From Vibrio sp. SS-MA-C1-2 (GTDB lineage: Bacteria > Pseudomonadota > Gammaproteobacteria > Enterobacterales > Vibrionaceae): a stretch of DNA of 64,000 nt. Shown piece by piece: positions 10,795-29,056 of this stretch (within the stretch, counting starts at the first letter, position 1; every line of letters starts with the position of its first letter). The stretch spans positions 310,001 through 374,000 of the forward strand of contig NZ_CP090980.1 in the NCBI RefSeq assembly GCF_021513135.1, in the 5' to 3' direction. The position numbers and the translations under genes are program-made. The notes beneath the pieces were generated by a model. It ran no database searches, was not told the DNA's origin, and saw only the letters and a list, made by a program, of their open reading frames with translations.

Positions 10795-13700
10795 ATGAGT
10801 ACTGTTGAACTACAATTACGTGGACTTTCATGCCAACGTTGCGTAAAAAAAGTCACCGATCTAGTGACAACACTCCCAACCACTGAATTAATTGAGATCA
10901 GTAAAGAAAAATTACGACTCAATAGCGAACTTGCAACCCGTGAGATCATCTCGCAAATTGAAACATTGAAGTTTCAGGCTGGATGGACATACCATTTTAA
11001 ACTCACTGGATTAAGCTGCAAAAAATGTGTCGCGAAGTTAACCGCTCAATTAGAGATGTTCAATACCTCAGAAGCCAGCACCATTGAAATTATCGAACTA
11101 ACTACCTCTGAGCTCACCATTTGGGCATCTCTAGATAGCCAAGAAATTATTCAAGCGGTAAATTCTGCAGGCTTTCATGCTAAAGAACAGGCGCATTACT
11201 CGCTGTCAGGTTTAAGTTGTGGCAAATGTGTCGCAAAAGTAAACGCCGTATTTGAAAATGATCCGGATATTGAGCAACGGACCGTAACAAAAACCGACTT
11301 AACGTTAATTTCATCCCTTTCTCATCAAACGGTTATTTCTCGGATCGAAGCGTTAAATTATCACGTCTATTTTATCTCATATTCTCAGCAGCAAGACGCT
11401 GACATATTGCAAGCACAAGCACAAGCACAAGCACAAGCACAAGCACAACAAACAGAACAAAAAACGGATAAAAGTGCAACCACCACAGACAAGAAAAAAC
11501 CTGAAACAGAAACTAACACCAAAGCAGATACCCTCTATTTCAATATCAGTGGCATGAGTTGTGCAAGTTGTGTCGCCAGTGTAGAAAAAGCCTTTACCAA
11601 AGTGACAGGCGTCAAAAATGCCCGCGTTAACTTAGTCGAGCGAACCGCAGCGATCAATGCCGATCATATCGATGATGAGTTGATTCAACAGCTTATCACC
11701 TCAGTCAGTCAATCGGGATACAGCGCCACGCTGACACAGAACTTAAATAGTCAACAACAGCAACAGAAAGAAGCGATAGAGAAAGAGCTAAAACACCATA
11801 AACGTGCCGCTATCTGGGGAATAATTGCCGGAGGCCTGATGATGATTTGGGGCTTAAGCGGCGGTAATATGATGATCCGTAATATCAGCGATCAACTGAT
11901 ATGGGGGGTGATTGGGCTAATCTGTTTAGCAATTATGTCAACGGTCGGTAAGTACTTCTACCAAAATGCATGGAAAGCCTTAAAACATAAACATGCTACC
12001 ATGGATACCCTTATCGCATTAGGGACAGGCGCAGCTTGGATCTATTCGGCGATTTTAGTGATTGCTCCAGAGATGTTCCCTGCCACTTCCCGTCATGTCT
12101 ACTTTGAAGCCAGCGTGATGATTATCGGTTTGATCTCATTGGGTCATTATATTGAGACTTACTCCAAAGCCAAAATGACCAAATCATTACAAGCACTGGT
12201 CAAGCTACAACCGAAAACCGCCACGGTTATTGATAACGACAACAAAGAACAGCAACAACCGATCGCCTCAATTATTGAAGGTATGCGAGTTCGTGTGAAA
12301 CCGGGAGAGCAGATTCCTGTCGATGGAACCGTACTTGAAGGACACTCCTATGTCGATGAGTCGATGCTAACCGGTGAACCACTGAGTGTTGCGAAAGAAG
12401 CAGGAAAGAAAGTCTCAACCGGCACCGTTAATGGCGATGGTAGCTTAATTATTGAAGCCAGCAGTGTTGGCAGCGATACCATGCTCGCGAAGATCATTGA
12501 GCTGGTTCGTGAAGCACAAAGCAGCAAACCCGCCATTGCTAAATTGGCAGATAAAATCTCCTCGGTCTTTGTGCCGATTGTCATTTTGATTGCGATAATC
12601 ACCGGGATTATCTGGGCAATTTGGGGGCCAACGCCATCATCAAGTTATGTGTTGATCGTGGTCACTTCTGTCCTGATTATTGCCTGCCCTTGCGCCCTAG
12701 GTTTAGCGACCCCACTATCGATCACCGCAGGAATCGGTAACGCGGCTCAGATGGGGATTTTAATTCGTGACGCCAATGTCTTACAGACTGCAAGTAAAAT
12801 AGATACTTTAGTCTTTGATAAAACCGGCACATTAACCAAAGGTAAACCGACGGTACAGAACATGACGGTATTCGATCAACAGTTAACCGAAGCACAACTG
12901 TTTGAACATATTTACGGCATAGAAAAAGGGTCGGAACACCCATTGGCGAAGGCGATCTGCCAATATGCGGAACAGCAAAAAATTAAAGCCAGCTCTCTAA
13001 TCTCGTTTAATAACTTACGAGGTCAGGGTGTTGAAGCAACAATCGCGAAGACTAATATCGATACTAATATAGATACCGATTCCGATAATCATGCAATCAA
13101 CCATTCTGTCACTGCAAACGATAACTGGTTAGTGGGTTCGATCGGATTAATGAACTCACGGGCTATCGATTTAACGGAGACAACCCCGAAACTGACGCAA
13201 TATACAGAGCAAGCATGGACTCCTATTTTAGCGGCTAAAAATGGTAAAATAGCCGGTATTATTGCGGTTTCAGACCCGATAAAAGACGATGCAGCAGACG
13301 CGGTACAGAAGATAAAAAGCCAAGGTTTACGCGTGGTAATGTTAACGGGAGATAACCAAACCGTCGCTAAAAAAATTGCCGCCATTATTGGTGTCGATGA
13401 GATTATCGCAGAAGTATTACCCGACCAAAAAGCACAACATATTCAAGCCCTCCAACAAAAAGGGTATAAAGTGGCGATGGTGGGAGATGGAATCAACGAT
13501 GCCCCAGCGTTAGCGTCTGCCGATGTTGGCATAGCCATGGGAAGTGGTTCAGATGTGGCGATAGAGAATGCACAAATGACGCTACTTAACTCATCCCCAA
13601 CGTCGGTTGTGGATATGGTGGCACTGTCGAAAGCGACAATGACCAATATTCATCAAAATCTGTTCTGGGCGTTTATGTATAACACACTGATGATCCCGAT

Positions 13701-13833: not shown

Positions 13834-13872
13834 TAAATGGTTCGAGCAGAAAATTAGAATAATCAGGGTATA

Positions 13873-14094
13873 TATACCTAAAATAATTGGAGTTGCTAGT
13901 AGGCGGCAAGTGAATGAGGCCCCATGAGTATAGGTTTTCTATATTCATGGGGCGAACGAAGACAGCCATTCTTGTTATAAACCTAGCCTAGCAACTTCAA
14001 GTATGAAGGGTATAGTAACTTCAAGCTTGAATCTGCGAAGTATGAAGGGTATATACCAACAACAACGCCATGATCAGCTTGAAGTATGAAGGAG
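13873..14094 (+). repeat. ERIC element (variant right arm) followed by degenerate right-end copies
   Basis: An ERIC runs 13873-14014 with the variant right arm (AGCCATTCTTGTTATAAACCTAGCCTAGC). Behind it the right-end sequence is repeated in decayed form: AACTTCAAGCTTGAAT...GAAGTATGAAGGGTATA to 14053, then GCTTGAAGTATGAAGGAGATA to 14095. It separates copA from the convergent DUF11 locus. Confidence 0.75.
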
Positions 14095-14101
14095 ATATGA
14101 G

Positions 14102-14361
14102 TTATTCCACCTCTAACATAAATGTTAATGTGACAACTTCTCCGGGAGCGACGGGACTGCTAACAAGGCCTGTAATTTGACCACTGCCACTGCGACCACC
14201 ATTGATACTGCCTTGCGGGTGAGAAATGGATGGCAACCCATTTTCACTGCGGAAGAAGGTATAATCGGGCGCAAGATCCATGATTTTGACGTTATACGCA
14301 TCATCGATGGCTGTGTTTGCTGCATTTAGCTGATAGATAACACACTGTTTGGGCATAATGT
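14102..14361 (-). pseudogene. Detached C-terminal segment of the DUF11 protein (frameshifted)
   Basis: This frame begins in-frame codons at the G-tract end and gives MPKQCVIYQLNAANTAID..., ending SSPVAPGEVVTLTFMLEVE. It matches the C-terminal DUF11-type domain end of the paralogue at 25146 (GECAIWRVVAKNVG ... PGDKAAVEFKVKVN). It continues the 952-aa upstream frame if one G is added to the G7 run at 14383-14389, which gives ...EGGAFVKTGLNIMPKQC. It therefore is most likely the lost end of that gene, not a separate 84-aa protein. Confidence 0.75.
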
Positions 14362-17220
14362 TTAGCCCTGTTTTAACAAAAGCCCCCCCTCTATTTTTCC
14401 ATCACAGTTTGCATCTAAGCCTTGTAGCTTTTCTATCCGCATATTGGTATTACTTAATACCGTGACATCCGTCACGCTTGGAGCGCTACAATCAGCAGTG
14501 AGGACAGGGTTTAATTGGTTAGCCGTGATAGTGGCTGTATTCACCGTACCTACAGGGGTTTGAGTTCTGGTCATGGTACTGACCCATAATACCTTTGAAC
14601 TGTGAGCTGGAATCGTAAGACTCCCCGATGGTGATCCCTGATAAGCGATCAATGTGTCGGTTCCATCAAACTCTTCATCTTTTCCTGAACTACCACTATC
14701 AAGATAAACCATTGAGTTAAAGAAGTTAACTTGATCCTCAACCAATGTGATTTTGAAATCGACGCTGGCATCAAGCGGATTGGTTAAGGTATGTTTATAC
14801 ATTATGGAGCCCCCTCCAAAGGCGGCACCTTTTTGGTCAGGTTGCAGTGTAAGGCACTTCACATTCTTAATCGAGACTTGGTCATATTTTGTATCTGATT
14901 GACCGGTAAGATGAGACGTTGCATTGAAGTAGATTGGATAATCACCATCATCGACACCATTAGGGATGGTAATGAAAGCTTTCACTTTGGCGCTCTGACC
15001 TTGAGCAAGAATCGGGATATCTGTTATTGTTTTACCTGCCCCATCTGTAAATTTAATCGTCCAACCAGCAGGAAGCGTTGTGGCGGGGAAACTATTCGTT
15101 GTGTTATAGAAGAGATCATAACCATCGGCAATACCCGAGGTGTTATTGACAAATAAAGTAAATGTCACTGTTGTTCCCTCTTCCGTGGTAATGGTAGTGA
15201 CTGGCGAAGTAGTAATACCCGCACCTTTTCCACAGCTAAATCCATCATTCGGTGTCGAGTCTTCTTGATCACATTGAGCATCAGTTACTGCAAAGTTATT
15301 AGTTAAATCTACGCGACTTTCTTCAACCTGATACAAAATATCATTGACTGAGTTAGTCTGACTAGGATCACCCACAGATTGCGCCGATTTAGTCAGCGCA
15401 ATAATTTCCTCATTAGTGGCATAACTATTTGGTAGCGTTAAAGCCGTAATAATTTGATAACCACAATACGCTTGAGGAGTATCACTACTGAGCACCTGAT
15501 TATCTGGGCACTTTGGTGTTGTCGAATCAAGTTCACCATAACCTAGGATTGGCCCAGTATCGATAATGCCATCATTATTGGTGTCTAGCAGTGGTGTCAC
15601 GCCATCACTTTTATAGAAGGCGACGATAGCACCTGCTGTTTTTAAGTCTGAGTGAAGACCAGTTACATAATCAAAAATTAAATTAATGGTGTCTGCTTGC
15701 GCACCGGTATTCCAAAAATAGTTACTGAACTTAACGGTTTGTCCTTGTTGGGCGCCATGAATGATCACATTATCAAAGTTGCTACCATCATCTGTAGTAC
15801 ATGTACTGCCACTGGCGTCACCACATGGGGTGATCTCGGTAGGCAAACGACATGAACCTGAAGATGAAGATGAAGATGAAGAACCCTGACAAGTACCTTG
15901 ATCAATGCCTCCTCCATTATTGGCGATAACGCTATATTCACCAAGGACGACAAAAGGGACGGTGTTGGTTGTCATAGGCGAAGACCAATCAGGCCCCCCA
16001 AAACCGGAGGTATTAGCATAGGCATATGTTGCTTCATTATAAAGGATACCAGCCGGCGTCCCCTCTTCAATGACAATATCTGCACTAAATGTCGCAGAGT
16101 CTCCTGCCTTTAAGCCATCAAGTGTCAATATTAATGAATTATCACCGTGATTAAAAGTTGCGTCAAAATTACTCTCATGATAGTCACTATTCGTATCATC
16201 TATTTTCCCTTGAATATTGATGTTTCCAGTAGGTGAAGGCTTGTGTTCATTCATAACGATTGGAAGATCAACACCATTGATTGCCCATTTAATATGTGCT
16301 CCGGATGATGGTTCGCCATCTATGACTGGATTTAATTGCATACCCGATGGAAGATAATCCATAATATACACATTGGATGGGGCTGATGTCCCAATAAAAT
16401 CAATAAAGTCTACAGTTGATACATTTGTATAAGTAAACATTAAGCGATAACGCTCGCCACTCCCAGAAACACCTATGGCTGGAGTAATTGACTTGCTAAC
16501 ATAAATCATTGCCGTATTGAGTATATTTAATTCTGTTTGAGCGGAATCAAAAATGTTCGTATCAGTCTCACTGGTCGCCGTTAATTGGTATTTCTCCACC
16601 CCTGAATTGCTATTACTGAGCACATTCATGACAAGATTGGCTTTTTCACCAGGAGCAAGAGGACCAAAATTTAACGACGTAGCCGCCCCTCCAGCACAAC
16701 TTAACAAAGGGCTATTTTTATCATCAGGGAGGCCATCACTATTTATATCACGGTAAAGTATTGCCGTTGAGATAAAAACAGGCATATCTTCACAAAGAAT
16801 CGTATAACTATCGCTAGTATTACCTAAATTCTGAATCGAGTGAGGAATAGAGACTTCTGTATTACCTCCGAATCCCCCGTTGGCTGGAATATGATAATAA
16901 CTCGCACCATCATTTGTCACCTCGACACCATATACTTCTTGAATCTCTGTAATAACAATATTGGATTCTATCTGATGAGCAATATCCGCACTGTCGATGT
17001 AGGTTGCCGCAGCTTGGTTTTTGATCATAGTGCCGGCTGGTAATGCCGCTTGAGCCATAAAAGAGAAGATCAGCAACGCCATCACTAACAGCGAAGTCAT
17101 CAAGGGAGAGATCCTATTCCCGACTCGCTTAGCTTGAAAATGAGCAGAGGGTAAACGATCAGATTGCAAGCAACGGGACAATAAGCTGGCAGTTAATGGA
17201 TTTTGGCTATTTAACATCAT
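14362..17220 (-). CDS. Large secreted DUF11-type repeat protein (C-terminus cut by frameshift)
   Basis: 952 residues. An unusually long N-terminal region (about 38 residues) precedes a hydrophobic signal core (MTSLLVMALLIFSFMAQA|A). The mature start (LPAGTMIKNQAAATYIDS) repeats the opening module of the two other large proteins of the locus. Several Ig-like/DUF11 beta-sandwich domains follow, with Dxx(N)DG-type loops (DINSDGLPDD, DTNNDGIIDTG) suggesting Ca binding, and a Ser8 linker encoded by GATGAA repeats at about 15860-15883. The frame ends early at LLLKQG because of a one-base shift at a G7 run. It starts 12 bp after the OmpA-like lipoprotein gene, so it is in one operon with it. Probably exported to the surface. 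Confidence 0.8.
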   Translation of the reverse strand: MMLNSQNPLTASLLSRCLQSDRLPSAHFQAKRVGNRISPLMTSLLVMALLIFSFMAQAALPAGTMIKNQAAATYIDSADIAHQIESNIVITEIQEVYGVEVTNDGASYYHIPANGGFGGNTEVSIPHSIQNLGNTSDSYTILCEDMPVFISTAILYRDINSDGLPDDKNSPLLSCAGGAATSLNFGPLAPGEKANLVMNVLSNSNSGVEKYQLTATSETDTNIFDSAQTELNILNTAMIYVSKSITPAIGVSGSGERYRLMFTYTNVSTVDFIDFIGTSAPSNVYIMDYLPSGMQLNPVIDGEPSSGAHIKWAINGVDLPIVMNEHKPSPTGNINIQGKIDDTNSDYHESNFDATFNHGDNSLILTLDGLKAGDSATFSADIVIEEGTPAGILYNEATYAYANTSGFGGPDWSSPMTTNTVPFVVLGEYSVIANNGGGIDQGTCQGSSSSSSSSGSCRLPTEITPCGDASGSTCTTDDGSNFDNVIIHGAQQGQTVKFSNYFWNTGAQADTINLIFDYVTGLHSDLKTAGAIVAFYKSDGVTPLLDTNNDGIIDTGPILGYGELDSTTPKCPDNQVLSSDTPQAYCGYQIITALTLPNSYATNEEIIALTKSAQSVGDPSQTNSVNDILYQVEESRVDLTNNFAVTDAQCDQEDSTPNDGFSCGKGAGITTSPVTTITTEEGTTVTFTLFVNNTSGIADGYDLFYNTTNSFPATTLPAGWTIKFTDGAGKTITDIPILAQGQSAKVKAFITIPNGVDDGDYPIYFNATSHLTGQSDTKYDQVSIKNVKCLTLQPDQKGAAFGGGSIMYKHTLTNPLDASVDFKITLVEDQVNFFNSMVYLDSGSSGKDEEFDGTDTLIAYQGSPSGSLTIPAHSSKVLWVSTMTRTQTPVGTVNTATITANQLNPVLTADCSAPSVTDVTVLSNTNMRIEKLQGLDANCDGKIEGGLLLKQG
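14383..14389 (-). other. G7 homopolymer tract at the frameshift point
   Basis: On the coding (minus) strand the sequence is GAGGGGGGGCTTTT. With seven G the 952-aa frame stops 6 codons later; with eight it would read through into the conserved C-terminal domain. This is a candidate phase-variable tract or a sequencing error. Confidence 0.7.
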
Positions 17221-17232
17221 TTTACTCCCTGC

Positions 17233-17808
17233 TTATTTAATTCGTTGATTAACGTTTGATTGTTCACGGTTAACTTGATTAAAGTCGGTCAATAGCAACT
17301 GAACGCGGCGATGGTTAGCGTAGTCAGCAACCTTCCCCGCTTGCTTAATGGGATAACGTTCTCCTGCTGCCATGGTTTGAATACGATGGGATGCAATCCC
17401 TTGCTGAGTCAGATACTGGCCGACGTGGGTTGCTCGTTGCAGTGACAGTTTATCGTTATAACTGCGATCGCCTCGGGCATCGGCGTAACCGATCACCATA
17501 ATGCTGCTCTCTGGGTATTTTTTTAGTTCAGCGACATACCGATTGAGCTGCTGTTTATCTTGTTGATCAAGTTCTGCCTGATTCAGCTCAAAAAAGATCC
17601 CTTCTGGCCATTCGGGTTTTGCTGGCACTTTTACCGCTGGTGCTTTAATCGGTATCAACTCTGTCGTAACATTTGAAACAATCTGTTTTGCTTGAGAGTC
17701 CACCACACAGACCCCTGTGTCGTATTTCGCGTAAATTTTCTCTGTTGAACTACAGCCTGTAAGCATGAGTGAAAATAGTGCGATTGTGAGTGTTGTTTTA
17801 TTCATCAT
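17233..17808 (-). CDS. OmpA-like peptidoglycan-associated lipoprotein
   Basis: 191 residues. Lipobox LTGC at Cys19, followed by a linker rich in Pro/Lys, then an OmpA C-terminal domain (about 70-180) with FFELNQAELDQQDKQQLNRYV, the peptidoglycan-binding signature VIGYADARGDRSYNDKLSLQRA and the end NHRRVQLLL. Such domains bind diaminopimelate in the cell wall and tether outer-membrane complexes. It lies 15 bp after the 2235-aa giant and 12 bp before the 952-aa DUF11 gene, so it very likely anchors that assembly to peptidoglycan. It differs from Pal by its length and isolated context. Confidence 0.9.
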   Translation of the reverse strand: MMNKTTLTIALFSLMLTGCSSTEKIYAKYDTGVCVVDSQAKQIVSNVTTELIPIKAPAVKVPAKPEWPEGIFFELNQAELDQQDKQQLNRYVAELKKYPESSIMVIGYADARGDRSYNDKLSLQRATHVGQYLTQQGIASHRIQTMAAGERYPIKQAGKVADYANHRRVQLLLTDFNQVNREQSNVNQRIK

Positions 17809-17823
17809 CTTAAATTCCCTTTT

Positions 17824-20800
17824 TTACTCTGCTAACCAGTCAAACATCTGCTCATCAAACTTAAACATTAAGTTGATGTATCCCCCATCGAGGTTGTAGC
17901 CTTGTGGATCGAGATCGTCGTCATTAAATCCAACAAGGTTATAACCAATTCCGAGACGTAAATTCTTCATTAACAGGTAGTTAATCCCTGCTCCCGCAGA
18001 ATAACGGACACTTTCAAAACCATCCGTTGCCAACACTCCGCCATGGATATCAAGATCCCAACGTTGATCTATGTTGTAGATAATTCGGCCATCGTAAATA
18101 GAGCTAACAGAGTCAACTTGTTTGAGTATTTCGGTATCTCGATAGCTCTCACTTTTCACCCCGACGCGTCCCGATAACGTGACGTTGTCGGTCAACTGAT
18201 AGTTTTGATGGGTTGAGGCGATATGGACATCTCTCTCGGCGTCGTCGTCCTCTTTTTTCCACTCATACATGGCTAACATGTTGTAGCGATTATTGAGGCG
18301 AGGACGGTAAGCAAAACCAAGGCTAAAGTCATTGCTCCAACTGTCGTCACCATCTGCACGGTCAACATAGCGGAACTCTTCTCGAACCATCGCGCTCCAA
18401 TCGATATTAATTCGCGTCACCCACGCCCCTGAAACGCCGTAATAATCTTGGCTTTCACCACTGCGATACTCGACACGGCTACTGGTTTTATAGTTATCGT
18501 GACGGGTGTCGGCTATTCCGACGGATGCCGCCCAACCATTCTCTAAACTCTTGTTATTGCCGCTATAGAGCACATGAACATACTCAAGGCTTGGATCTAT
18601 CGATAGACCCGGCTCTAATTCGAAACGTCCTCGGTAGCCGTTGATCAACTCCAGTTCTCGTCCATCACTCACACCACGTTGTTTGAGTTCATTGTAGGTT
18701 TGACCACCACCGAGCCAATCAACTTCGATACCGGCTGAGAACTCATTGGTTGAACCACTGCCTAGCCCACTGATCCCTGACACAGAATCGACAAACTCAT
18801 ATTGAGCATAAACTTTGGCTTGATCATGAACCTGTAGATCCCCTCTCGCGCTGACTCGTTCTTTCTCGGCATCATCAAAACTTCGTTCATATTCAAGATC
18901 AACACGGCCTGATTTATCGAGAATATTAATATTACGACCTAAGCCGACAATCCCCGTAGCGAACTCTTCATTGCGATCTGAATTATTTGAGTACTCACTT
19001 TTGATATATCGGCTTCCCGCGGTCACATCCCACTCAGTACCAAACAGTGGTGTGGTAACGGTGGCACCAATACTTTGTTGGGTATCATCATCAACCAAAT
19101 CTTTACTGTGATTACCATCGATATTTAAGGTCACGTTCGATCCAAGACGTTGGGTATGGTCAATACTTAACTCTTCTTGTCCTTTCATGATGCCTGAACC
19201 ACTGTGATCGAAACCTTGTTCGGCATAGGCGTACTCAATGGCGGTATCCGCATTACGGCTCCAGTTATGCTTAATTCGGATTCGATACGCGTTACCTGAT
19301 TCAAGATCATCAAGCTCTTGATCGGTCAGTTCTCGATCAGGATCGTTCTTTAATCCTGTATTTTTGATCTTGGCGAATGAGCCACTTAAGGTTGTTTTCG
19401 ACCCTAACTCATAATCAAACCAAACACTGCCAATATCGTAACCTTCTGTTCGATGTTCATTGGTTTCATAACTGACACCAGCAAGCAGATCATCGGTAAC
19501 ACGATAGGTTAAGCGTCCACCCGCGAGGTTATATTTATCACCGCCATCTTCAACGTCATACGTCACTTGAACGGTAATCGGGTTAAACTCTTCATCGACA
19601 CTTGGGATCGCATCGTTAAAGCGAATGGTTCCGTTGTAGTAATCTAAAACGTAGTCGGTATAACGAGAGAGTTCTTTCTTATCGATCACTAGCCCTCGGT
19701 TGTCACGGTCATAAGTAAAAATAGTGACGGTTTCTGAGTGGCGGACGATATCTTCTCGGGTATCTCCGTTGATGTCGTAGAACATCGCGGTTCCGTTACC
19801 ATCAAAACGTGCGACTTTCAGTAAATCTTCAGGTTGTGCGCCATAGACTTGTATCCGAAGTTTATTATTATCGTATACGCCCATTAATCCATTCACGACT
19901 TGAGTCGACTGTCCGAGATCATAACTGTTGGCATCATCGCCGGTGTTGTAATCCCCCCACATCAAGAAGTGTCTATCGCGCTCAAGCTTGGCATAGAATT
20001 TACTGGTGCTGCGCGCTTCATAACCTCGAATACTGGCATCCCCGGCAATCGGGTAGTAGCTTTCTGGGTTTAGTTCGCGGAAGAAATCCTCATCGTCTTT
20101 ATCGGTGTCGTAACTTAGGGTTAAGTAATTACCGCCCACAATTCGACCCTTCATAAAGATCGCAAAACGGTCGGAATAGTCCCACTCTCCATCTTGATAG
20201 CCTTCTAATTGGTTATCGGGAATGGTGCCCGTGATATCGGCAAATTTGGCACTTAAATTAGCCACACCGGTAACAAATAGCGGACGTTGATCGGCAATTT
20301 GATAAACAGTGGTTTCATCTTCCATGTCGTTATATTTTGCTGCAACTTGGATATTACCGGTCACTTCTGATGAGCGGAGGTAAACGGTCTTTTCACCGTC
20401 AGTCACACGAACTTGATGCCCCGTCTCTTGATCTTGAATATCAGGATCAAGCCAGACATTGCCTGCATCAGAATCTAACGTAATAAAGTGGGTGCCGCTC
20501 ACGAGGTTATTATTGTTATCGTAAACACGAACCTTAAGTGGAACCACACTACGTCCCCCATCGGCTTTCAGGTTTTGATCGCTATCAGCGGTAATCGACA
20601 CCCTAACTGGAGATAGCGGTCTGATAAAGGTTTCACTTAATAACACTCGTTCATTGTTGAACTGATCAACGGCTTTAATTTCGACTAGATTTTTGCCTGT
20701 TTTGAGTGGCACACCATACCAGCCAAGGATTTCAGCTCGTTCACGTTTATTTAATACCTGCTCACCTAAGCGATCTTCATTGACCTCTTCACCATTGAGG

Positions 20801-23800
20801 TAAAGTTTAGGCTTCATCCCCGATTTAACGACCGCGATAAAACGCCCATCAGCACGAGTTGGATCTGTCGGCCATAACCATGTTCCTTCGGCGGCTTGTT
20901 GACGGGTGATCTTTTTCGCTTCTTTTAATGGCAATGGAATGGAACGTTCGATTTTATTATCAATCGCAAAGCGTTTTTCTAATGGGATCCCTTCATAAAT
21001 GGTCGGCACTATTTTGCCTTTGATTCGATATCCGGCTAAATCCCCTTCTAACTGTGTTAAACGCGTCTCTTCGGGACTAAAACCGATCCGTAAGCTGAAT
21101 TTTTTCTCATCTAACTGATAGAGATAGGCCTCTTCTTGCAACGCTTTATCTAACTTATTGAGACGATTCATCATCGCTTTTTCTGTCCCTGCACCTAACT
21201 CAATTGCAAAGCCTGTAAATTGAGCGAGTTTCTTGGTTTCAGGATTTTCAACATTGACCTTTTGATCGCCAGGACCATACAGTACGGCATTGTTTAGATC
21301 ACCGGTTGTCGGTGCAGTTTGGTTATTTTCTTCTAATGTGCCTTGGTAGTTCATCGCTTCATCTAATAACCAACTGCCATTAATATTGACGTTGCGCTCT
21401 TTAATTTCTGCCATGATCGCTTCGCTATTAGTGGCTGGACAATTAGCGGCAAAGTCGGCGCGGTGCATCTCCCCTATTCTTACATCAGCAAAACGAGAGC
21501 TTCCTTCCCCGGCATTTCGGGGGTCGAGGGGTTTGAGTTCCAGCCCTTCTGGCAAGCTATAAGGATCGGCTCGCAACACATGAACCCCGGGTTGAACGCC
21601 AAATAGCGAATACTGTCCGTTCTCATCGGTAATGACATAGTCACCGGTCTCTAGGTAGAGTTTAACGCCACCAATTGGCCACTCACCATCAGCTTGTTGA
21701 CCATCACAATTTCCATCGAGGTAGACTTTACCAAAGATGATACTGCGATCGTTTAGCACGCCAGTTTGTCGGATATCGATACGGAAATTGGCCGTATTAG
21801 ACTCAATAATCTCCTGACTATTTCCAACTGAAGCAGTGACATAGGCTGAGTTTATGCCATCGGATTCAATCGCGCCTGACGTGAGTTGTAATAGGTATTT
21901 CACCTCAACAGGTTCGCCAATTTTTAGTTTTATGGCGTGACCTTGACCTGATAACTGATTGAGATCAAAGTGAAGTGAACCATCGCTCAGTTGAGTCGGG
22001 TCATCGACAGAGACGCTGTTGATGGTGGTCATTCCTTCGATATATTTAAAACCATAAGGAATGGCATCATAAAGATTGAGACGATAAAAGTCGCCAGCAT
22101 CCATGTAATTATTGATGGTCACGGTGTAACGAACATAACTACCGATTTCAGCTTCTGAAAGGTCGGCGGTTTTCTCGATCAACAGTTGTCCTGAGCTGAT
22201 GGTTGGATCAACGGGAATATCAAACTGTAACTCGCCATCATTAGGATAAAAAATACCAGACTCTTGTTGACCCATCGGGCCATCTTTACCGTAAGAGGCG
22301 TCGGTGACATGATAATTAATAAAAGCATTCGGCTGTTTGATTTCTGTCGGCCAGCTATAGCTTTCACCATTGGCGACGTTAATGAAATATCCGTTATTAT
22401 TGGTCTCTAATAGCGCTTCGGGATAAGGCACGGTGCCATCACTGGTTGAATTCACCGTCTCAAGTCGTATTGGTTCCGAATCTTTAACGTATTGATAGAA
22501 CGTAACAGGAACATCAGCAACGGGTTCTTTTGATAAGGTATTAAAGACGCGCATTTGAGGGCTAACCCATGAGATATCTTCTAACAATAAGTTATATGAA
22601 CCTTCTTGCTCTGGATCGCTCTCATAAACACGAACTAACAGCCGTTCATTAAACTTAGCGGAGATTTGGCAATCGGCATTGGTCAGATCGCCATCACCAA
22701 AGTTTAGATCTTCAGCGTCTAAATTAATGATCGCCCGCATAGAGTCAACGAGATCGTCGGTGGTGATATCTCCCGTATAAAATGGACTACCTGAAAGGCT
22801 ACCTAAACACTGCGCACCGCCACGGGTTGATTTAATGGCTCGACTCTTTTTGGTCATGGTCGACGGATCCTCATTCGGTATTCCCGACGAGTTCACTTTG
22901 ACATGAGAAGGGGCAACGGTTTTAAAAATCCCCGTATTTGGCCCAGTCTCTGCCATATACCAATAGATATACTCCCCACTTTCATTAATCAAACGAATAG
23001 GGAAGCCGGAATCTTTTGGCCCGATTAAATCGATCAATGCTCGGTTTTTATTGGCTCTTGGTAGATTGATTCTTGCATGGATACTGTCTTTTAATGGTTC
23101 GAAGCTACCACTGTCGGTATGGGTGTAATATTCGGTATCTTCAAAATGTTCATCATTACTGTAATCAATTTTGCGACGCGTTTGCACCAAGTTGGAATTA
23201 ACCTTGGTAAAACTGATGGTTACCGCGGGCTGATCTAACGAACCGAGGGTATTACAGTAGTTATTACTGTAAATAGTTTTCCCTTGATTGCTGGGATCGT
23301 CTGTGTTGGCACTTCTCTCTCCAATATTGACTTCGGCCACTGAATTAACGACCAATTGTTGATCATGGAACGATTCATTAACTCTGGCGTTATAAGTAAA
23401 ATGACCAAAGAAGTTAGGCTGGAAATAGGTTTTATTCACTAAAAAGCCAATTCGCTCTATAGGAGAATTGACGTTCTCTTTCCATGTATCATACCGATAC
23501 CAGTCTAATTCTTGATTAGAAGGGTTAAGGCTGCTGCCTTGACGGTTTTTACCCACTAAAACGATACCACCAATAAAATCATTACTTGAGAGGGAGATCA
23601 GCCTTGGTGCATAATCGTCGATATTGACCATCTCTTCAATGGTGATGTTTGGTGGAACATCGGCGGTAATCAAAACCCCTGAAAGTTGTTTAACGTTTGA
23701 ATCTTCAGAGTCATAAACGTTGTAGGGACCTTCGGTATAGTCGATCATTTGATTACCCGTATTTCGGTAGTCGACCCTGAAATCGATCTTATCACCTGGG

Positions 23801-24531
23801 TATAAAATAGTTTCACACAGGTGAGTTCCCTTTAGAGAGATATCGATATTACCCGCAGTATTAACGATCACTTTACTCCATGTTTCATCCGTGACCATCT
23901 TATCTTCTATCGAGGTTGTCACTGTGGAAAAGTAGTAGTTACTGCCATCAATTTGAGTGGGTGGAACATAGACAGAAAATAGGATTGGGAAGATCTCACC
24001 CGGCGCTAATCTAGGGGTGATATATTGACCTGAACTCTCTTTTTCTAATTCAACTTCTTCTGGCTCAAGTTGTCCATTTTGATTGTTATCAGAATAGATT
24101 TTAATTTTGTATGACGTTGAGCTAACATGCGACCCTAGTGAACCACTGTCACTCTCTGATGTGTTGAAAGTGTCGACGAGATAGCGATCTTTGACATTAC
24201 CCCGATTGATCACTTGATGAGAAATATGTGTCTCATGACCAGGGGCCGTCACGGCAATCGTTGCTGGCGCCGCAGTGCTGTTATCGATCTCTTGATCTGG
24301 GGTTATTTCAACCCCCAAAATTTCACCTACCGTAAACTTAGCGGTATTGGAAAAGATATACTGATGAAAAAATCCTGTTTCACTATCGATATAACTGGCG
24401 GTTGCCTGATTATAAATCACTTGCCCCGGGGGCGTTAATGCAAACACATTACTTACCATAAGTAATAGCGCACCGATAACGATAGTGAAGTCCTTTAATA
24501 TATGTTTTTTTTGCGCTGCCATGATCATCAC
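17824..24531 (-). CDS. Giant outer-membrane protein: DUF11, SdrD-B-like and Ig-like domains with C-terminal beta-barrel
   Basis: 2235 residues. A signal peptide ends NVFA|LTPPG. The N-terminal module (LTPPGQVIYNQATASYIDSE) is shared with the locus paralogues. Beta-rich domains follow; a DUF11 domain (SGQLLIEKTADLSEAEIGSYVRY, about 775-915), an SdrD-B/carboxypeptidase-regulatory-like domain (GKVYLDGNCDGQ ... DENGQYSLFGVQPGVHVLRA, about 930-975), an invasin-like Ig domain (about 1310-1405), then from about 1410 a long run of amphipathic strands resembling a TonB-receptor-sized outer-membrane barrel. The end (FDWLAE) lacks the classical terminal Phe. The layout fits a barrel anchoring an exposed or periplasmic filamentous N-terminal region. 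Base composition looks GC-richer than the flanks. Function is unknown. Confidence 0.85.
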   Translation of the reverse strand: MMIMAAQKKHILKDFTIVIGALLLMVSNVFALTPPGQVIYNQATASYIDSETGFFHQYIFSNTAKFTVGEILGVEITPDQEIDNSTAAPATIAVTAPGHETHISHQVINRGNVKDRYLVDTFNTSESDSGSLGSHVSSTSYKIKIYSDNNQNGQLEPEEVELEKESSGQYITPRLAPGEIFPILFSVYVPPTQIDGSNYYFSTVTTSIEDKMVTDETWSKVIVNTAGNIDISLKGTHLCETILYPGDKIDFRVDYRNTGNQMIDYTEGPYNVYDSEDSNVKQLSGVLITADVPPNITIEEMVNIDDYAPRLISLSSNDFIGGIVLVGKNRQGSSLNPSNQELDWYRYDTWKENVNSPIERIGFLVNKTYFQPNFFGHFTYNARVNESFHDQQLVVNSVAEVNIGERSANTDDPSNQGKTIYSNNYCNTLGSLDQPAVTISFTKVNSNLVQTRRKIDYSNDEHFEDTEYYTHTDSGSFEPLKDSIHARINLPRANKNRALIDLIGPKDSGFPIRLINESGEYIYWYMAETGPNTGIFKTVAPSHVKVNSSGIPNEDPSTMTKKSRAIKSTRGGAQCLGSLSGSPFYTGDITTDDLVDSMRAIINLDAEDLNFGDGDLTNADCQISAKFNERLLVRVYESDPEQEGSYNLLLEDISWVSPQMRVFNTLSKEPVADVPVTFYQYVKDSEPIRLETVNSTSDGTVPYPEALLETNNNGYFINVANGESYSWPTEIKQPNAFINYHVTDASYGKDGPMGQQESGIFYPNDGELQFDIPVDPTISSGQLLIEKTADLSEAEIGSYVRYTVTINNYMDAGDFYRLNLYDAIPYGFKYIEGMTTINSVSVDDPTQLSDGSLHFDLNQLSGQGHAIKLKIGEPVEVKYLLQLTSGAIESDGINSAYVTASVGNSQEIIESNTANFRIDIRQTGVLNDRSIIFGKVYLDGNCDGQQADGEWPIGGVKLYLETGDYVITDENGQYSLFGVQPGVHVLRADPYSLPEGLELKPLDPRNAGEGSSRFADVRIGEMHRADFAANCPATNSEAIMAEIKERNVNINGSWLLDEAMNYQGTLEENNQTAPTTGDLNNAVLYGPGDQKVNVENPETKKLAQFTGFAIELGAGTEKAMMNRLNKLDKALQEEAYLYQLDEKKFSLRIGFSPEETRLTQLEGDLAGYRIKGKIVPTIYEGIPLEKRFAIDNKIERSIPLPLKEAKKITRQQAAEGTWLWPTDPTRADGRFIAVVKSGMKPKLYLNGEEVNEDRLGEQVLNKRERAEILGWYGVPLKTGKNLVEIKAVDQFNNERVLLSETFIRPLSPVRVSITADSDQNLKADGGRSVVPLKVRVYDNNNNLVSGTHFITLDSDAGNVWLDPDIQDQETGHQVRVTDGEKTVYLRSSEVTGNIQVAAKYNDMEDETTVYQIADQRPLFVTGVANLSAKFADITGTIPDNQLEGYQDGEWDYSDRFAIFMKGRIVGGNYLTLSYDTDKDDEDFFRELNPESYYPIAGDASIRGYEARSTSKFYAKLERDRHFLMWGDYNTGDDANSYDLGQSTQVVNGLMGVYDNNKLRIQVYGAQPEDLLKVARFDGNGTAMFYDINGDTREDIVRHSETVTIFTYDRDNRGLVIDKKELSRYTDYVLDYYNGTIRFNDAIPSVDEEFNPITVQVTYDVEDGGDKYNLAGGRLTYRVTDDLLAGVSYETNEHRTEGYDIGSVWFDYELGSKTTLSGSFAKIKNTGLKNDPDRELTDQELDDLESGNAYRIRIKHNWSRNADTAIEYAYAEQGFDHSGSGIMKGQEELSIDHTQRLGSNVTLNIDGNHSKDLVDDDTQQSIGATVTTPLFGTEWDVTAGSRYIKSEYSNNSDRNEEFATGIVGLGRNINILDKSGRVDLEYERSFDDAEKERVSARGDLQVHDQAKVYAQYEFVDSVSGISGLGSGSTNEFSAGIEVDWLGGGQTYNELKQRGVSDGRELELINGYRGRFELEPGLSIDPSLEYVHVLYSGNNKSLENGWAASVGIADTRHDNYKTSSRVEYRSGESQDYYGVSGAWVTRINIDWSAMVREEFRYVDRADGDDSWSNDFSLGFAYRPRLNNRYNMLAMYEWKKEDDDAERDVHIASTHQNYQLTDNVTLSGRVGVKSESYRDTEILKQVDSVSSIYDGRIIYNIDQRWDLDIHGGVLATDGFESVRYSAGAGINYLLMKNLRLGIGYNLVGFNDDDLDPQGYNLDGGYINLMFKFDEQMFDWLAE

Positions 24532-24800
24532 ACCATTAATTGGGTTAATGCCTAGCTATCCATGCAATAGAAAGCTGCTTTATGAAATTAAATTATTTTA
24601 TTTTTTGTTTTTTGTTTTTTATTACTTACTTCTATTTAATTAAAGTGCCACTCAAAACACTTTAATTAAACAGAAATTAGTACGGCTCTAGGGTTAAATA
24701 GATGCTCTATGCTTTACTTATTCAATGTATAATTCTTAAATTATTACTAATTAAGCCAGAGTGTTGCTTTATTTTTCACTCTTTATTTTCACTACAATTT
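24532..24800. other. AT-rich leader upstream of the giant gene
   Basis: Part of a 614-bp gene-free gap. It is strongly AT-rich, with T-rich runs at about 24595-24625; it probably holds the promoter of the giant-ompA-DUF11 operon, but no single promoter could be chosen with confidence. Confidence 0.3.
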
Positions 24801-24856
24801 TTATTAATTTATTAATTTATTAATTTATTAATTTATTAATTTATTAATTTATTAAT
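24801..24856. repeat. Tandem octanucleotide (TTATTAAT) x7
   Basis: Seven perfect head-to-tail copies occur about 270 bp upstream of the giant gene. Length variation here could change promoter spacing or DNA bending. Confidence 0.9.
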
Positions 24857-24927
24857 TTTAATTATCACCCAACATAATTAACAACCCTAACTCATTAAAA
24901 ATACAGGAAAATAAAACATGAGAAAAT

Positions 24928-24977
24928 AAAGCCAACGACAGCTAGCGTTGTGATTCATTTAAGTTGCGGTTGGCTTT
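24928..24977 (-). terminator. Inverted repeat AAAGCCAAC/GTTGGCTTT
   Basis: A 9-bp stem with a 32-base loop; on the minus strand it is followed by ATTTTCTC and on the plus strand by TTCTTATTTTT. It may terminate the 1056-aa gene's transcript before the giant gene. Confidence 0.4.
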
Positions 24978-24984
24978 TTCTTAT

Positions 24985-25038
24985 TTTTACTTTTACTTTT
25001 ACTTTTACTTATAAAATATGAATTATGAATTATGAATT
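24985..25038. repeat. Two short tandem arrays: (TTTTAC) x4 and (ATGAATT) x3
   Basis: A hexamer array at 24985-25008 and a heptamer array at 25018-25038 lie side by side in the same AT-rich gap. Confidence 0.85.
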
Positions 25039-25059
25039 ATGATTACAGTTTTATTCCCT

Positions 25060-25104
25060 GATTGAAGCTGCTGCCTTATTTTAAATGGGGCGACAGCTTC
25101 AATC
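25060..25104 (-). terminator. Hairpin GATTGAAGCTG/CAGCTTCAATC downstream of the 1056-aa gene
   Basis: A perfect 11-bp stem with a 23-base loop, about 40 bp after the stop codon of the minus-strand gene. No strong T-run follows on the minus strand, so it may act as a mRNA 3'-end stabiliser or weak terminator. Confidence 0.5.
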
Positions 25105-25145
25105 TTTTGGGGGTTAAATTGAATTAATCCACTATTTCAGCTTGA

Positions 25146-28100
25146 TTAATTAACCTTGACTTTAAACTCAACAGCCGCTTTATCACCAGGGATCATGGTG
25201 CCAATCACGAAGCCAACGGTTCCATCAATAAAGTCAGCATAAGAATATGGCGCTAAAGAACAAATATCCCCGATCTCAGTATCAATATCGCCACCAGCGG
25301 CGTGAGGGGTTTGACCAAATCCATCCGGATTATGCAGAGCTGTATTTTCTCCTGCTACCCCATTCAAGACACAAGCTCTTAATGTTCCGTCTACAAAGGT
25401 GGTAAATTCGGGGAGGTTATCCTGAATCACCACATTTTTAGCATTTTCGGTTCCGACATTCTTTGCAACCACACGCCAGATTGCACACTCGCCAGGTAAG
25501 ATCGTGGTACTGTGATTGATTTGGAATGTAGTTGTGACATCTGTTGTTGCCCCACAATCCTTAGCCTTAGCTACGAACTTGAACAGTTTCAGTTTAACAT
25601 CAGAGGTCACGACTGTGACTTTATCGATGGCAATATCATCGGAAGTCGTCGATGTTGTGACAGTGATGGTCGACTCGTTTGTCGCGCCTTCTTTAGCACT
25701 GGTTGGTGCAGTCACTTCGGCGACAATCGAGATCGTTTTTTTCGGCTCAAGGGTAAAGACTGGGTTTAACGCATTTGTTGCACAGTCTAAGTTAGTTGGG
25801 GAGGTATAAGTTACACCATCAATAATGATAGGATCAGTAAAAGTACACACTTCACTCAGCAGCACTTTAGTACCATCATCTAATACCACTTTAATTACGG
25901 TATTAAAATTATTGGCTGCTTCAGTATCAGCAACACCAATCGATATGGTATCGCTTGCAAAGCCGTTGTTGGTAATATCATGTTCAAACTCAACACGTCC
26001 ACCTTGTTGGACTGAATTTTCAAGTTTGACTGGGCTAATAATGACATCAGGATCAAGTGTAACGGTAATGGCATCAATCTTGTAGTCGTTAATCGCATCT
26101 GCTGCACCCTCTCGAGCTGAAATGGCTGAGAATACGATATTTGTTGTATCTGCTGTGGCATCTTCTGGTACCGTAACATGAGCGGTATACGCAAATACAT
26201 TATCTAGACCAGGCGCTGGACCGACAGGATCAATGATCTCTGTTTCTCCATCAATCACGACACCACGACTATCTTTAAAGACAACGACCCAACCTGCAGG
26301 GAGATCTTGAATAACTTTATCGGGTTTACCCTCCGCATCAAAAGATAAACCAGTATCAATACCATGTCCTAAGATATAGCTATCAGGCGTTGAGCTTTCG
26401 TTAGCAATAAAGAGGTCAAATATAACCGTCTCTCCCGGTACTGCTTGTTTAATTTTAGTAGCGTTCCCGGTTTCAGTTCCAGTTCCTGCTTTATCAGCAT
26501 TTACTGGTGGTTCAACATCTTTATCACCAAAGCCTGTAGCTTGAGTTGAGTTAGCTAAATCAACACGCGCAGTGCTTTTAGTGATCTCCCCAAGGAATTC
26601 GTCTTTACCAGCTGATTCAATGCTTGGATCACTCACCGAAGTGATCTTGGTCGTTGCGGTTAAGTCTGTATCACCTACATGACCAAATGGTAACGTGACC
26701 ATGACTCTAACCAGCATTTGGTTACAAGAAAAATCTATATTATCAATGGTTTGAACCGAACTATCTGTTGTTAAACAACTTGCAGATTGCATTGGTGCGG
26801 TATTACCGTTAAGCAGCGGAATCTCACCATTTGCATTCATATAAGACACTTTCGTATCTTCTGGGAAGCCTTGAGGGCCGATTGAAGGTGTACTCGGATG
26901 AGGATGATTACCTATATCAGTGGTTAAAATAAAGGCTTGTTCCGTGTTACTCAGGTTAGTAACAATGTTATAGAAGAAGAATTGAGAACCTTCTTCAGCT
27001 TCATCAACTGTCTGAATATTTGCAGTTGGATTGGTATCACCTACACCACCAGGGTCGCTAGCCGCTCCTTTATTTCCTGTATCGACAATCTCCCCATCAA
27101 TGATAGACGTTAGGACATCTTCACCAAGGAAGTGATTATTAGATTCTGAACATTCAGCGGTTGTATAGTTGGTATTGGTGCTATCTGAATCATAACAACC
27201 GTAAGCGATATTGTTGATCCCCTCTTTTGGATTGATATCTAACGGATCAAAATCAACAGAGAAAGTAACGGTCATAGTTGTACCGGATTCTAAGATGAGA
27301 TCTTTAGCACAAACACCGGCTACACTTGTCTCAGATTTACCATTTGAGTTGTAATCTTCGGCTGGAATTGAAATTGGCGTGAGGGGAGATAGAACACTAG
27401 ATGTAATCGAACCTGCTTCATCTAATGTACATGCGGCTGCGTCAATATCTGCACCCAATGAACCATTGAAACTAGCACTAACAAAAGTTGTTCCCTCTGG
27501 TAATCCATCCACAAAAATAACATCAGATGCATCTGCCTGACCGACATTTCTAATCGTTACGGTATACTCGATTCGGTCAGTTCCCGTCACCGCACCACCA
27601 TCTGGAATGAATGCCGCATCTTTAACAAGTTGTAGAATAGGCACATCACCAGCAACAACGTGAACCAGATCGTGGTTGCTTCCTTCACCACCTGAACTTG
27701 AATCAAGACCGTTATTGGGAGTAAGATCGTCAACGACAATACCAGGAGCACTTGTTGATGCATTAATAAACATACCGTATGTTGTATTAGCGGTTGTACC
27801 TGCTGTTGGAGCTTGAAGAAGAATATCTTTAGACTCACCTGGCGCCAGTTTAATGGATTGCGAAGCACCAGTACCAGCACAACTATACTCTGAGCCCAAT
27901 TCATTAGAGTCAACTTGACCATTGCCATTTAGATCAAAGTAGGCCTTTGGAGTAAGACCAGTGACGGCACCACCTTCATCATGAGACCCACAGGACATTG
28001 AGTAAGTATCTAATACATTACCCTCATTGGTTAAAGTATGAACAGTTGTTGCCATTCCACCAATTGGTACTGAGACTACTCTATCCACACCGAGGCTAGC

Positions 28101-28316
28101 CGCATAAGCTTGTCCTACTGTAATTACCGCTTCATTAGAGGTTGCGGTGAACCCATTCCCGAGGGCATCTTCATAAGTTACTGTCGCCTGGTTGGTTATT
28201 TCTGTATCTGGCGGAGTACTTGCTGCATAAGCTAAACCTGAGAGGGAAGAAACCCCTAAGATTAAACCTGCTGCCCACGTAAGCTTCCATTTATTACGCG
28301 TTTCCATATCAATCAC
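25146..28316 (-). CDS. Large secreted DUF11-type repeat protein, intact paralogue
   Basis: 1056 residues with a signal peptide ending AYA|ASTPP. The opening module (PPDTEITNQATVTYEDALGNG) parallels the other two large proteins. A first DUF11 domain (VKDAAFIPDGGAVTGTDRIEYTVTIRNVG, about 230-370 with inserts), further beta-sandwich domains with acidic loops (DLNGNGQVDSNE), and a final DUF11 domain (GECAIWRVVAKNVGTENAKNVV ... PGDKAAVEFKVKVN) follow. It looks like a surface-exposed, possibly Ca-stabilised, filamentous protein. It is transcribed toward the giant gene but separated from it by 614 bp of repeats, so it may be its own unit. Confidence 0.85.
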   Translation of the reverse strand: MIDMETRNKWKLTWAAGLILGVSSLSGLAYAASTPPDTEITNQATVTYEDALGNGFTATSNEAVITVGQAYAASLGVDRVVSVPIGGMATTVHTLTNEGNVLDTYSMSCGSHDEGGAVTGLTPKAYFDLNGNGQVDSNELGSEYSCAGTGASQSIKLAPGESKDILLQAPTAGTTANTTYGMFINASTSAPGIVVDDLTPNNGLDSSSGGEGSNHDLVHVVAGDVPILQLVKDAAFIPDGGAVTGTDRIEYTVTIRNVGQADASDVIFVDGLPEGTTFVSASFNGSLGADIDAAACTLDEAGSITSSVLSPLTPISIPAEDYNSNGKSETSVAGVCAKDLILESGTTMTVTFSVDFDPLDINPKEGINNIAYGCYDSDSTNTNYTTAECSESNNHFLGEDVLTSIIDGEIVDTGNKGAASDPGGVGDTNPTANIQTVDEAEEGSQFFFYNIVTNLSNTEQAFILTTDIGNHPHPSTPSIGPQGFPEDTKVSYMNANGEIPLLNGNTAPMQSASCLTTDSSVQTIDNIDFSCNQMLVRVMVTLPFGHVGDTDLTATTKITSVSDPSIESAGKDEFLGEITKSTARVDLANSTQATGFGDKDVEPPVNADKAGTGTETGNATKIKQAVPGETVIFDLFIANESSTPDSYILGHGIDTGLSFDAEGKPDKVIQDLPAGWVVVFKDSRGVVIDGETEIIDPVGPAPGLDNVFAYTAHVTVPEDATADTTNIVFSAISAREGAADAINDYKIDAITVTLDPDVIISPVKLENSVQQGGRVEFEHDITNNGFASDTISIGVADTEAANNFNTVIKVVLDDGTKVLLSEVCTFTDPIIIDGVTYTSPTNLDCATNALNPVFTLEPKKTISIVAEVTAPTSAKEGATNESTITVTTSTTSDDIAIDKVTVVTSDVKLKLFKFVAKAKDCGATTDVTTTFQINHSTTILPGECAIWRVVAKNVGTENAKNVVIQDNLPEFTTFVDGTLRACVLNGVAGENTALHNPDGFGQTPHAAGGDIDTEIGDICSLAPYSYADFIDGTVGFVIGTMIPGDKAAVEFKVKVN

Positions 28317-28564
28317 CTTATATTAGTAATATGAAATCATTAAAAAAGAATTGGTTTTATTATTTTTAAAATTCAAATAAGTCATCACCCTCCATGAAGT
28401 CAATTTTTATTTATACTTTGTTTCCGTACTTAGTTATTTTTTCTTTTTTAGTTACTTTTCTTTGTTATTTTACTTTGTTATTTTACTTAGTTACTTTTCT
28501 TAATTATTAATATGTTTAGCTATTAATATGTTTAGTTATTAATTAATATGTTTATTATAAATAA

Positions 28565-29056
28565 TTAATTAACTTTAACTCGATAAGTAAATACTTGTTC
28601 TTCTCCCGCTTTTAATAACGCTTGAGTATTCCAGCGCAGGGCGTGATACTCTTCGGCAGAGATAATAACTTCCACTTCTTTACCATCTTTTACTTCTTTA
28701 CGCTTTACTGGCTCAGATTCAAACGTTTTTTTGTTATCTATTGAGACGGTAAATTCTGAATCAACTTTGGTTCGGTTACTGTTTGCAACATAGGTGGTAT
28801 TGGTTGGGATCGGCCCTGTAATCGCAAGGGATTTAAGATCACCCTCAGAGACATTGCTATAAACCAGTTGATATTCAATGATATCCCCCGGGAATGCCTC
28901 TTCGGCTGGTGAGCGAACCTCTTCACCACTGTTGTCCACCGTGACTCGATAAGCTTCTATAACACTATTTAGTTTTCCATCCGCTATGGCGCCGGTTGAA
29001 AATATTAATGAGCTTGAGATAAATAATGTAATAATAAATGATAATAATCTTTTCAT
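28565..29056 (-). CDS. Small secreted single-domain DUF11-like protein
   Basis: 163 residues: signal peptide (ending GAIA|DGKL) and one DUF11-like beta-sandwich (about 25-163) with the family pattern PGDIIEYQLVYSNVSEGDLKSLAITGPIP ... LKAGEEQVFTYRVKVN. The C-terminal pattern repeats that of the 1056-aa protein downstream (AAVEFKVKVN). It is the first gene of the locus in the direction of transcription and may be a minor subunit or cap of the same structure. The 248-bp gap to the next gene is AT-rich with loose repeats of TTATTTTACTT and TTAATATGTTTAG. Confidence 0.8.
   Translation of the reverse strand: MKRLLSFIITLFISSSLIFSTGAIADGKLNSVIEAYRVTVDNSGEEVRSPAEEAFPGDIIEYQLVYSNVSEGDLKSLAITGPIPTNTTYVANSNRTKVDSEFTVSIDNKKTFESEPVKRKEVKDGKEVEVIISAEEYHALRWNTQALLKAGEEQVFTYRVKVN

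Follow-up and report, generated by a model that had tools for sequence, protein, structure and literature searches.

The frameshift near the 3′ end of a DUF11-type surface protein gene in the window, the 64-kb stretch of DNA that was analysed as a whole, is most probably an assembly artefact that stems from an undercalled G homopolymer and not a biological switch (estimated probability roughly 0.87). The window lies within contig C1 (1.04 Mb). The genome comprises 4.33 Mb in three contigs, looks complete (100% completeness) and is placed in the Vibrionaceae through its Photobacterium relatives. The break, the two frames that it separates and the genes of the surrounding cluster are located as follows:

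14362..17220, minus strand: 952-aa open reading frame, the pre-break part of the gene, encoding a DUF11/NEW3-like surface protein with a signal peptide
14383..14389, minus strand: G7 run, site of the frame change, most likely an undercalled homopolymer
14102..14401, minus strand: open −1 frame with the gene's conserved C-terminal segment, aligned to 17 orthologue C termini
17233-17808, minus strand: OmpA-domain protein, neighbour in the cluster
17824-24531, minus strand: 2235-aa DUF11/SdrD_B-like protein, neighbour in the cluster
25146-28316, minus strand: 1056-aa DUF11 paralogue, neighbour in the cluster
28565-29056, minus strand: 163-aa DUF11 protein, neighbour in the cluster
17233..29056, minus strand: whole span of the neighbouring genes, same cluster as the broken gene

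The broken gene is the last of this minus-strand group, in which it follows the genes for the 163-aa, 1056-aa, 2235-aa and OmpA-domain proteins. Its 952-aa frame (17220..14362) harbors a PF10633 match at residues 712-768 and contains the G7 run at 14383-14389, with the stop codon located six codons past the run, exactly as a previous sequence-only reading had described it. The adjacent −1 frame stays open over 99 codons, from 14401 to 14102. The same reading had assigned the conserved C-terminal domain of the intact paralogue to this second frame, which is borne out by a BLASTP match of the segment to the C-terminal end of the 25146..28316 paralogue (E 7e-7, 39% over 36 aa) and by an end-to-end alignment with 17 orthologues from Photobacterium. 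A single G7 run is present in the 64-kb window, compared to 1.9 expected from shuffles. The lone run is therefore no more than chance, and the unusual part is the frame change that takes place at it.

Orthologues of the gene are found in 17 other genomes of the family, all of which belong to the one genus Photobacterium; no further orthologues were detected at E ≤ 1e-30 in a 394-genome sample of the order. All 17 take on a single open frame of 925-948 residues that runs through the break position, and the comparison of their DNA gives a longest G run of only 2-5 at the site. Relatives that carry the same G7 together with two separately started genes were thus not found. A separately started 3′ gene was also considered for the window itself and was rejected, as it is absent in the relatives and the segment forms the C-terminal end of the secreted protein in 17/17 orthologues.

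The segment behind the break keeps 18 of the 18 columns that are invariant among the 17 orthologues, and the pre-break part keeps 123 of 181. Identity to the orthologue consensus amounts to 47% after the break versus 37% before it. Judged by these 18 invariant residues across 17 orthologues, no decay of the post-break segment is seen. Because the invariant columns are kept and the match to the consensus does not fall below that of the pre-break part, the segment is constrained like the rest of the protein, or was so until very recently.

A scan for further breaks in the assembly covered 1.64 of the 4.33 Mb (all of C1, 580 kb of C2 and 20 kb of C3) and tested for a frame change across each homopolymer flanked by coding sequence on either side, and 800 kb of Photobacterium piscicola (G066:C46) were treated alike as a control. 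A codon-usage scan of C1 for split open reading frames that ignored homopolymers was swamped by ordinary operon junctions, and the search was narrowed to homopolymer sites. Coding G/C runs of at least six show a frame change at 18 of 81 sites, and all 18 shift in the same direction (p = 8e-6). The corresponding count for A/T runs of at least six is 49/1370 (~4%, Fisher p = 5e-9 against the G/C runs), with both directions represented, and G/C runs of 4-5 show a frame change at 25 of 1996 sites (p = 2e-15 against the runs of at least six). In the control, the frame changes at 1/30 G/C runs of at least six (p = 0.02 against 18/81). G/C runs of at least seven are scarce, with 8 in 1.64 Mb versus 12 in 0.8 Mb of the control (p = 0.015), a pattern that short-calling of long runs would produce.

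Three of the 18 sites (G6 at C1:6656, 276622, and 471191) look like true junctions of neighbouring genes, with a start codon located just past the run. After subtraction of these junctions, and with two sites falling into one gene, about 14 breaks remain, the G7 site included. It speaks against the undercall that the reading frame continues unchanged across most coding G6 runs and some coding G7 runs. Register is not the common factor of the other breaks, which fall into more than one register and include C runs.

The genes that are broken belong to no single category. In at least seven of them, the two halves match consecutive parts of one family. This applies to an RND efflux pump on C3 (PF00873 positions 2-848 and 855-1020), a CodB-type permease, FadL, DmsC, TssF, YgfZ, and ispD, whereas the split of a YnjB-like binding protein is partly supported. 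Another RND efflux gene, at C2:807208-810239, appears to be split into two successive pieces (PF00873 positions 3-494 and 510-1020). The decisive case is ispD, whose halves cover TIGR00453 positions 2-123 and 122-219 and are split at the G/C run C2:177428-177433. The gene is intact in 60/60 other Vibrionaceae searched, and the genome contains no second full copy. For bacteria that depend on the MEP pathway, IspD is essential. As an essential gene without a second copy cannot be lost by a living organism, the ispD break at least is not real. Together with the signature that is common to the other breaks, this leads to a systematic undercall of G/C homopolymers. Of the three readings offered from the sequence alone, the sequencing error, there only the “simple alternative,” is the one that the evidence favors: many unrelated genes are broken at G/C runs and always in one direction. 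Phase variation and slippage do not share this support.

The undercall would act at the G7 site in the same manner as at the other G/C runs of at least six throughout the genome. The sequencing or consensus method would have shortened the run, and one intact gene would thereby appear as two frames. In the organism, 17220..14102 would then form one continuous gene that encodes a full-length secreted surface-type protein, in a cluster that is also found in Photobacterium. The real protein most likely has the C-terminal domain. We infer that the G7 site shares the cause of the genome-wide breaks, the link to this single site being statistical.

A recent, one-off indel in this strain, be it a truncating mutation or a young pseudogene, is an improbable explanation. 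It would account for the lost frame and for relatives without a counterpart. The break is also located close to the 3′ end, a region in which real indels are relatively more frequent (PMC3711429), and this speaks for a real indel and against an artefact. The post-break segment, however, shows no decay, and the genome-wide bias to G/C runs and to one direction is the signature of sequencing.

Still less probable is phase variation, in which the G run would change its length by slipped-strand mispairing and toggle the C-terminal domain, with the assembly capturing the OFF state. The homopolymer does lie within a surface-type protein gene, the frame that follows it is intact, and G runs of at least seven are rare in this genome. 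Such a switch predicts that the tract is kept at the locus, but none of the 17 orthologues has a run above G5 or a break at the site, and seven Gs are short for a contingency tract. Slippage should also produce both directions instead of the one that is seen, and the same signature recurs in housekeeping genes, including the essential ispD. The proposal of an OFF variant thus finds no support. If the run were real and variable after all, which is very unlikely, the locus would constitute a lineage-specific contingency locus of Vibrionaceae at which the strain alternates between a full-length form of the DUF11-type surface protein and one truncated at the C terminus.

A programmed −1 frameshift at the G7, ribosomal or transcriptional, that yields a short and a long protein is hardly credible. 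G GGG GGG at 14383-14389 stands in the register of a slippery heptamer, and the conserved frame is reached by a −1 shift. The heptamer and the break are, however, both absent from the 17 single-frame orthologues, the other breaks are spread over registers and C runs, and the RNA 3′ of the G7 is unremarkable (minimum free energy of pseudoknot-free structure −16 kcal/mol, z = −0.19 versus shuffles). The slippage suggested by the sequence-only reading is accordingly not upheld.

Several other repeats are found in and around the cluster. A perfect tandem array of the 8-base unit TTTATTAA (7.4 copies) is located at 24800-24858 between two cluster genes, ~270 bases upstream of the gene for the 2235-aa DUF11 protein, and, as a candidate length-variable repeat, is by its sequence more classical than the G7 run. 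Inside the 952-aa frame, a four-copy 6-base tandem repeat at 15859-15882 codes for a short serine run, and changes by whole units would keep the frame. The gap 3′ of the gene (13870-14097) contains three near copies of a 19-23-base direct repeat as well as two inverted-repeat pairs, one of which is a 15-base hairpin and possible terminator. At 11410-11448, the perfect 6-base repeat CAAGCA (6.5 copies) lies in frame within a gene for a copper-type P-ATPase with several metal-binding domains. Outside the window, the same genome encodes another secreted protein with a weak DUF11-type match (L070:12990-15646, corresponding to C1:792990-795646). Two G6 runs coincide with an apparent frame change in its gene, which also carries, at C1:793973-793982, a G10 that is in frame and exceeds every other G run of the 1.64 Mb scanned. 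This locus could be another artefact or a better place for real phase variation.

As biology, the break at the G7 site probably does not matter. Its significance is one of data quality, as about 14 apparent breaks at G/C runs occur in 1.64 Mb of a seemingly complete genome. Read support is needed before any frameshift, pseudogene, or phase variant apparent in this assembly is believed.

The closest counterparts of the window protein are the Photobacterium orthologues of ~930 aa (P. piscicola, P. damselae, P. phosphoreum, P. kishitanii, and others), which can be aligned from end to end, the C-terminal segment included. A nearby frame of ~2200 aa with a weaker match is also present in several of their genomes. 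The orthologues differ in being ~37-40% identical to the window protein and in their unbroken frame. The poly-G phase-variable surface genes of Campylobacter and Neisseria resemble the broken gene in that a G run is located in the coding region of a surface-type protein. In contrast to them, the run here is short, is not known to vary in length and lacks conservation in orthologues, and the same breaks affect housekeeping genes.

The breaks also resemble known undercalls in long-read assemblies. A PacBio-only genome of Clostridium autoethanogenum contained ~240 false deletions, mostly in homopolymers, that were found with Illumina data and checked by Sanger sequencing, and its annotation suffered 142 errors from apparent frameshifts (PMC4687164). 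In the Kastor study, which deals with nanopore assemblies of Pseudomonas, deletions in homopolymers make up most of the errors in a nanopore assembly (PMC12007338). Both cases share with the present genome that many unrelated genes are broken at homopolymers, nearly all in the direction of a deletion, and that genes needed for survival are hit. The difference is that the excess here is concentrated at G/C runs of at least six and does not extend to all homopolymers.
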